From Lutjanus erythropterus (lineage: Eukaryota > Chordata > Actinopteri > Lutjaniformes > Lutjanidae), in the NCBI GenBank assembly GCA_020091685.1, contig CM034598.1, positions 20,692,745 to 20,756,744 on the forward strand: a DNA stretch of 64,000 bases, read 5' to 3'. This document shows positions 16,809 to 23,720 of the stretch, piece after piece. Under the pieces are notes generated by a model. That model was not told where the DNA came from. It made no database searches and saw nothing but the letters and a program-made list of their open reading frames with translations. The translations under genes and the position numbers were made by a program. Numbering within the stretch: the stretch's first letter is position 1; each line of letters opens with the position of its first letter.

Positions 16809-16847
<39 letters not shown>

Positions 16848-16873
16848 TTTCAGACAGACACACACACATAGCC

Positions 16874-16921
<48 letters not shown>

Positions 16922-18747: not shown

Positions 18748-18800
<53 letters not shown>
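18748..18800. repeat. (TG)n microsatellite
   Basis: About 26 uninterrupted TG units. It falls just past the end of the zinc-finger relic on the minus strand. Confidence 0.95.
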
Positions 18801-22754: not shown

Positions 22755-22833
22755 TTAAAATACTTTAAAGGTAAAGGGGCAGTTTGGATTATTTGAAGTG
22801 GAGTTGTATGAATTAATTATACACAGTCAGTGT
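22755..22833. repeat. Older interspersed repeat, left part (split by a hAT insertion)
   Basis: AAAGGGGCAGTTTGGATTA through the 8-bp GTCAGTGT matches from memory the start of a common fish repeat. Its continuation (GACACGCCCCCAGTTTGGAG) appears at 23570 onward. The two parts become continuous if the hAT element and one copy of GTCAGTGT are removed. Confidence 0.55.
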
Positions 22834-23569
22834 TAGGGGTGGGGGAAATTTCCGATTCTTAGATGCATCGCGATTCGGACGTGGACGAATCTGAATCGAT
22901 TCACAAACGTCCAAATTTCGATTATTTAAATCTGTTAATTAAAGTGATACAGAAGCTTCTAAATAATGCGGAACTAAGAAGCGCGGTACGCGTCATCGCC
23001 GGGACACTTTGGGACGCGCACCTGGAGCGACACGCGCACAGCGGAAAACAAACATGGCCGACCGCCAGCCACCTCGCCGTGAGATCCGAACAGCTCCTTC
23101 TAATTTAAAAGCAGCTGTGTGGAAACTCTTCGGCTTCGACAACGTCGACGGCGGACGCGAACTGGACAAGAGCCATGTTTTATGTAAGCTTTGTCGAGCT
23201 AAAATAAAATACTTTGGCAACACAACAAACATGAGAAGCCACGTAACTCGATTCCACCCGACAGAGGAGTCGGGGAGACGGCAGGCTGCTGTTGCTGCGG
23301 CCACTAGTGGCTAGTGTTGGAACTGTCCAGTTTGCAAACATTTCCAATAGTTCAATAAAATATAATGGAAATGAATTCTTATTACAAAGGCGCTGTTTTT
23401 AAAAAATGCAAGTGATGAATGTTTATTCAGTGAGACAAAAAGAAATGTGTTTGTGAAAAAGTGCATCAATATACATAAAGATGCATCAATAATCGTTTTA
23501 TAATCGAATCATAGCCCCTGAATCGTAATCGTAATCGAATTGGCAGGTGCCCAAAGATTCCCACCCCTA
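22834..23569 (+). mobile_element. Non-autonomous hAT element (736 bp) with BED-finger ORF
   Basis: The termini are inverted: TAGGGGTGGG at 22834 and CCCACCCCTA ending at 23569. An exact 8-bp direct repeat GTCAGTGT flanks the element (22826-22833 and 23570-23577), which is the target-site length of the hAT superfamily. Subterminal regions are rich in AATCG/CGATT motifs and GATGCATC, typical of transposase-binding ends. Inside, a CpG-rich leader (about 22977-23043) precedes a short BED zinc-finger ORF, with an AATAAA at 23354-23359. The DDE/RNase-H and dimerisation regions of a hAT transposase are absent. An intact TSD and ORF argue for a fairly recent insertion. It sits inside an older repeat. 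Confidence 0.85.
23054..23314 (+). CDS. BED-type zinc-finger protein encoded by the hAT element (86 aa)
   Basis: The ORF begins at an ATG in good context (AACATGGCC) and encodes 86 residues. Residues about 18-70 form a BED finger: aromatic pair in AVWKLFGF (W23, F26), then C44-x2-C47, 15 residues, H63-x4-H68, with the NTTNMRSHVTRFHP segment typical of hAT/ZBED proteins. BED fingers are the N-terminal DNA-binding domain of hAT transposases. The rest of the transposase is missing and the frame ends after a short alanine-rich tail. If expressed, it could bind element ends without cutting. An upstream in-frame ATG at 23009 would add 15 residues; 23054 is preferred for context. AATAAA lies 40 bp after the stop. 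Expression is unknown. Confidence 0.7.
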   Translation: MADRQPPRREIRTAPSNLKAAVWKLFGFDNVDGGRELDKSHVLCKLCRAKIKYFGNTTNMRSHVTRFHPTEESGRRQAAVAAATSG

Positions 23570-23720
23570 GTCAGTGTATTTGTAGATGTCGGGCGACACG
23601 CCCCCAGTTTGGAGAAGCAGAGAAGTCCATGAGCATGGAAGCTAAGCAGCGTGCTGCTGTGAACAGCGTCAGCAGCAAAACATATTTTAGCCACTTGAAA
23701 AAGACTCATCTCTAAATATC
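23570..23720. repeat. Older interspersed repeat, right part
   Basis: This continues the repeat interrupted at 22833, from GTCAGTGT through CGACACGCCCCCAGTTTGG and CAGCAGCAAAACATATTTTA to AAAAGACTCATC. The order of motifs matches from memory a common fish repeat. The right boundary is approximate. Confidence 0.5.

Follow-up and report, generated by a model that had tools for sequence, protein, structure and literature searches.

A probably inherited BED zinc-finger exon in a short non-autonomous hAT element family of Lutjanus erythropterus

Described relatives and the structure of the window element

A target preference of the form nTnnnnAn is a mark of the Ac family of hAT transposons, and ZBED1 retains most of a hAT transposase without transposon ends. 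In the accessible parts of the published accounts, the BED domains of Hermes are described as binding subterminal repeats, with insertion at 8-bp nTnnnnAn targets (PMC10368747), and Buster elements as using nnnTAnnn targets (PMC3517528). The Mar and BuT2 MITEs of Drosophila are presented there as shortened hAT derivatives, mostly below 1 kb, with short inverted ends, 8-bp duplications, and a recent amplification (PMC3517528, PMC3942097). Outside the hAT superfamily, KP and other non-autonomous P elements are described, in the parts of the reports consulted, as deletion products in which the N-terminal DNA-binding domain survives with its frame open, in KP a THAP domain within a 207-aa repressor (PMC7776569, PMC12393704). 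A search of an open-access literature collection found no BED-only non-autonomous hAT element among titles or starts of abstracts, within the terms searched.

The window analyzed in this study, a stretch of 64,000 nucleotides corresponding to C8:20692745-20756744 of the 938-Mb Lutjanus erythropterus genome, carries a short element whose features are listed in Table 1. A first-pass annotation, made from the letters of the window, had described here a hAT element with matched terminal sequences and an exact 8-bp duplication, and the element, its 10-bp ends and the duplication were all right to the base. Its statement that the ends are rich in AATCG also held, as 10 AATCG/CGATT words were counted in the outer 276 bp of the element vs. 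a mean of 1.80 by shuffling, and 0 of 2000 shuffles reached 10. In agreement with the CpG-rich leader reported earlier, the CpG observed/expected ratio of the leader was 1.68 and that of the whole element 1.32, while the flanks (2 kb each) gave 0.21 and 0.39. The high CpG content of the element fits a young insertion in which methylation decay would not yet have gone far. Elsewhere in the window, CA/TG dinucleotide repeats lie at 16809-16919 and 18749-18800, Rfam gave no match to the window at gathering scores, and Pfam gave nothing at E 0.001 for the 10 ORFs searched out of 28 with at least 110 aa.

Table 1. Features of the window element (positions in the window)
Feature	Position	Strand	Evidence or remark
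Non-autonomous hAT element, 736 bp	22834..23569	+	Genome search, end pairs
Target-site duplication GTCAGTGT, left	22826..22833	.	8/8 identical to right
Target-site duplication GTCAGTGT, right	23570..23577	.	8/8 identical to left
Left terminal inverted repeat TAGGGGTGGG	22834..22843	+	Exact 10-bp match, reverse complement of right end
Right terminal inverted repeat CCCACCCCTA	23560..23569	+	Exact 10-bp match to left end
Left subterminal AATCG/CGATT words (n = 5), presumed transposase-binding sites	22853..22923	+	Binding presumed from Hermes, accessible part of the account (PMC10368747)
Right subterminal AATCG words (n = 5)	23491..23537	+	Word count
CpG-rich leader, presumed remnant of parental promoter / 5′ UTR	22960..23053	+	CpG observed/expected
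86-aa ORF, presumed inherited exon 1 of ZBED1-like hAT transposase	23054..23314	+	ATG 23054, TAG 23312-23314
Internal deletion junction region	23312..23325	+	L046, L047, L096 hold ~125 bp extra transposase-like sequence there
AATAAA, presumed remnant of parental 3′ UTR	23354..23359	+	40 bp beyond stop

The 86-aa ORF begins with an ATG in the context AAAACAAACATGG, with A at -3 and G at +4, so that the good start context noted earlier was recovered, as was the AATAAA 40 bp past the stop. An intact BED finger had been recognized in this ORF, and it was supported by a zf-BED match of 39.3 bits (cut-off 20.6); the four zinc ligands, C44, C47, H63, and H68 (C-x2-C, H-x4-H), all align with Cys/His residues of ZBED1 (PDB 2ct5) at identical spacing. 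BED was the only domain detected in the ORF, and nothing pointing to dimerization was found in it. The stop at codon 87 is atypical of the family, as another base stands there in 27 of 33 copies, and most copies without this stop continue to 98 aa; 33 of 40 copies (the window copy and 39 others) entered this comparison, and seven indel-bearing or truncated ones were omitted.

Ten changes distinguish the window copy from its neighbours, five of which are common to the older copy L041, two of these five being found in most older copies as well. The five shared changes cluster within ~100 bp at window 23079-23180 (element positions 246-347), and this patch may represent gene conversion, template switching, a mosaic, or retained ancestral letters. 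With the patch set aside, the ORF of the window copy shows one nonsynonymous change (Ser35Arg) and one silent change, the latter also present in L099.

Compared with the described systems, the window element resembles Hermes in its BED finger, in the concentration of short repeats in its ends, and, at the level of its family, in 8-bp nTnnnnAn targets; Hermes, however, is described in the accessible text as having a full transposase, a CCHC finger and an AAGT word (PMC10368747), whereas the window element has a CCHH finger, a putative binder, and an AATCG word. Like the Mar and BuT2 MITEs, it is a shortened hAT derivative with short inverted ends, 8-bp duplications and recent amplification; those MITEs are characterized without coding capacity in the available parts of both papers (PMC3517528, PMC3942097), while BED exon 1 is readable in a minority of the copies of the window family, and Mar uses Buster-type nnnTAnnn targets (PMC3517528) instead of nTnnnnAn. 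With KP it has in common that a DNA-binding domain is present and the rest of the transposase interrupted, but it belongs to another superfamily and encodes only 86 aa, with BED only. ZBED1, in contrast to the window element, is a domesticated host gene by the account available in part (PMC3606216).

Copies in the host genome and the search for a parent

Genome-wide, the 3′ end pattern (≤2 mismatches) gave 85 matches and the 5′ end pattern (≤3 mismatches) gave 84, while the reversed control patterns of both ends gave 0. Pairing the ends produced 74 elements of 289-1863 bp, most commonly 736/737 bp (30) and 717 bp (14), and none of the 74, the longest of 1863 bp included, was autonomous-sized. 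The earlier assignment to a non-autonomous hAT element that retains an N-terminal BED exon was upheld.

Sixty-seven copies were fetched and cut, chosen by similarity to the window copy and not randomly; the similarity searches scored the best 40 of 373 and the best 150 of 758 candidates, which biases the set toward the window copy. Exact 8-bp duplications flank 55 of these 67 copies (35/40 in the first set and 20/27 in the second), and all 55 differ from one another, indicating that these copies are true transpositions rather than copies of chromosome blocks. Segmental duplication as the source was thus ruled out for the 55 copies. When the duplication motif was analyzed in 60 of the 67 copies, omitting seven with imperfect duplications, the targets favoured nTnnnnAn, with T at position 2 in 40/55, A at position 7 in 39/55, and both in 26, while nnnTAnnn occurred in 4. 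The family therefore shows the Ac-type hAT features of 8-bp duplications, 10-bp inverted repeats and nTnnnnAn targets.

A BED-like stretch was found on the same strand within 2.5 kb of 79 of the 85 3′ ends, using 87 of the best 150 of 758 candidate matches. For an exon-1 remnant, the view that its retention is unusual was accordingly not sustained, since one accompanies nearly every 3′ end; among the fetched copies, most of these remnants are damaged. Copies whose BED match falls into the '1-67' or '1-68' class lie mostly outside the fetched set and may or may not have the fourth ligand; another unfetched copy, at C6:928134 (BED match 1-86), might be intact. Two short elements gave no BED match. 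One of them, L112 (C13:29810508-29810796; 289 bp), consists of ends only, retains just 146 bp on the left side, and has an exact 8-bp duplication, and the other (C4:452706-452996; 291 bp) is known from its ends only. The family thus shares with MITEs its small size, near-identical copies, kept ends and lack of transposase, and departs from them in coding capacity; because the CCHH ORF is readable in 12 of 66 copies, 'internal-deletion derivative' is preferable to strict MITE.

The first-pass annotation had suggested looking for a full-length parent element in the host genome, and this search yielded only a probable remnant on C21. In L046, L047, and L096, the ~125 bp of extra transposase-like sequence at the end of the window ORF is interrupted by stops in each copy, and part of it matches a single locus on C21 with 94% identity over 49 bp. 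Downstream of the 49-bp match, this locus carries a hAT-type transposase core, which is frameshifted and in which Pfam DUF659 scores just under the curated cut-off (31.8 vs. 34.7). It was the only close transposase core found, as among the best 150 of 286 candidates the next-best scoring relative is 51% identical and none exceeds 58%. None of the ends of the element family was present in the parts of the C21 locus read. On the basis of the 49 bp and the protein context, the C21 core is probably what remains of the parent itself or of an element closely related to it.

No 3′ end among the 85 lies within 5 kb of any of 91 transposase matches taken from the best 150 of 286 candidates; one, on C9, is 5.2 kb from a transposase match, which by strand lies beyond the 3′ end. 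A full-length parent was thus found neither by transposase proximity nor by end pairing, searches that would miss a parent whose ends had diverged further. Separately, a hAT-like locus at C8:6266652-6267155 (in L116; C8:6.27 Mb) has a 537-aa open frame with a BED finger and a transposase core. This ORF was rejected as the parent, its core being 52% identical to the C21 remnant and the 4.4 kb read around it containing no family ends.

Fate of the finger and substitutions in the ORF

The BED exon is present, wholly or in part, in 66 of the fetched copies, a tally that leaves out L112. Of these 66, 12, the window copy included, have the ATG and all four zinc ligands, and in 54 the finger is broken or the start missing. 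A genome-wide scan for the finger core gave 63 matches, 24 of them with Phe for the second Cys, and the 24 Phe copies among the fetched ones are these same 24, all of which hold the frame open. Fifteen further copies (717-718 bp) carry the same Phe together with a 19-bp deletion that destroys both finger and frame. In the maximum-likelihood tree, built from 63 of the 67 copies, the 39 Phe copies stand on one side of a branch with support of 99/96, and the 15 frameshifted copies are nested among them, likewise with support of 99/96, in a bootstrap that had not fully settled. By parsimony, the second zinc Cys would have been replaced by Phe once, in one ancestor of both of the largest bursts, with 39 surviving insertions afterwards. 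Two more finger-broken types, L013/L017 and L093/L094, have two copies each.

The mean pairwise difference was 2.35% in the Cys47 group, which comprises nine copies, three of them broken at other sites, but only 0.55% in the phenylalanine group (F47) and 0.38% in the frameshifted group. Since the lowest differences and the largest counts both belong to finger-less groups, the youngest and largest bursts are finger-less. These results speak against the earlier proposal that the element spread as a competitor of full transposase, as 54 of 66 copies have lost the finger or the start and the two biggest amplifications follow the loss of a zinc ligand.

Selection on the ORF was assayed in 48 of the 67 copies, in groups of 9, 24, and 15, by comparing variants with the commonest letter of the subgroup, with weights set according to the mutation spectrum observed; shared variants were counted once, without a tree. 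All 48 copies pooled gave 24 nonsynonymous (N) and 15 silent (S) variants and 1 stop, with P = 0.15 for a silent excess and an implied omega of 0.67. The nine Cys47 copies gave 13 N, 9 S, and 1 stop (P = 0.155 for S excess; implied omega 0.59), the 15 frameshifted copies 4 N and 0 S (P = 1), and the phenylalanine and frameshifted groups combined 10 N and 8 S (P = 0.125). In the 24 F47 copies, 5 N and 8 S were counted, a nominal silent excess with P = 0.016, uncorrected and in one of five overlapping groups. The density of variants was not reduced in the ORF, with 40 in 258 bp vs. 61 in 478 bp outside.

Neutral decay of the ORF in other copies, which the first-pass annotation had named as the finding that would refute its functional reading, was therefore partly obtained: for the pooled copies, neutral change could account for the N:S ratio, while the silent excess of the F47 group opposes a simple neutral reading and is possibly a matter of chance. 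Nor does this excess favour the finger hypothesis, since the copies that show it have lost one zinc ligand.

Origin of the ORF and alternative explanations

The window element very probably arose by internal deletion from a ZBED1-like hAT transposon of the Ac type, and its BED ORF would be an inherited one that is intact because the copy is young, not because it is needed. Deletions would have removed the catalytic and dimerization parts of the parent and left both ends. The AATCG subterminal words are observed in the retained ends, and by analogy with Hermes the parent transposase presumably bound them via its own BED domain. The parent transposase, acting in trans, would then have moved ~85 copies to new sites, for which 8-bp duplications are observed in fetched copies, and the 86-aa BED ORF would be exon 1 of the parent carried along. 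That many copies still hold the exon would follow from several deletion types having started downstream of it, perhaps on account of a cis requirement for the left end. The mostly neutral-looking change and the finger-less bursts argue that the window ORF owes its integrity to the youth of the copy rather than to any need of the element. To judge from the sequences, the intact finger is most likely a leftover and not a working product. The family thus illustrates that a domain ORF found intact in a young copy of a transposon is weak evidence of function, because sister copies show that the domain was lost before the largest expansions.

It is possible, though not quite probable, that the BED exon region was kept for sequences required in cis for transposition, or merely as a part outside the deletion-prone middle, its coding being irrelevant. 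Among the deletion types examined, several retain 400-480 bp at the left, and Hermes requires ~220 bp of each end according to the accessible part of its description (PMC10368747). Against this stands L112, which has an exact duplication with only 146 bp on its left, along with the 291-bp element seen by its ends; to judge by L112, an element can do without the exon, provided that this copy was not shortened after insertion. Retention for cis sequences or by deletion position may be part of the internal-deletion explanation rather than its opponent.

That the miniprotein is a KP-like repressor, which would bind to the AATCG ends, keep full transposase from acting, and be what the element was favoured for, is very unlikely. 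The 12 copies out of 66 that retain both finger and ATG, the good ATG context, the AATAAA, and the subterminal words would suit it, and so would the repression ascribed to truncated DNA-binding transposases of the P element in the consulted sections of two papers (PMC7776569, PMC12393704) and the isolated Hermes BED domain reported, in the available part of the source, as crystallized on subterminal repeats (PMC10368747). However, 39 copies descend from an ancestor already without one zinc ligand, the Cys47 group shows no significant constraint, no full-length element was seen for present competition, and the ORF holds only BED, with nothing for dimerization. As the main explanation, a repressor or competitor was rejected because of the finger-less bursts and the lack of significant pooled constraint; a weak or past repressor effect of the miniprotein may exist or have existed. 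KP, the nearest functional precedent, would be comparable with the window element only if the latter is expressed and binds; in addition, unlike KP, the amplified copies of the window family have lost the binding domain.

A variant that we consider highly improbable holds that the older CCHH miniproteins were self-limiting repressors and that the Cys-to-Phe break released the 39-copy burst, which would give hAT elements a natural equivalent of KP. A functional miniprotein would correspond, among hAT elements, to the KP repressor of P elements, and if the Cys-to-Phe change did release the burst, a loss-of-function experiment would already be recorded in the genome. The matched CCHH and F47 copies offer a ready test of hAT repression by isolated BED fingers.

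Domestication of the window copy as a ZBED-like host BED gene is extremely improbable. In its favour, the ORF is intact and ZBED genes are described as derived from hAT transposons (PMC3606216); against it, the transposon ends and the duplication are intact too, sister copies are many (85 3′ ends in the genome), the ORF changes outside the L041 patch are one N and one S, and constraint is significant neither in the pool nor in the Cys47 group.

In a set of 5.8 billion proteins, one relative of the miniprotein was found, a 72-aa BED fragment. This ENA protein lies on a contig of 617 bp; it covers 78% of the window miniprotein with 84% identity and stops just short of the fourth ligand, as does copy L100.
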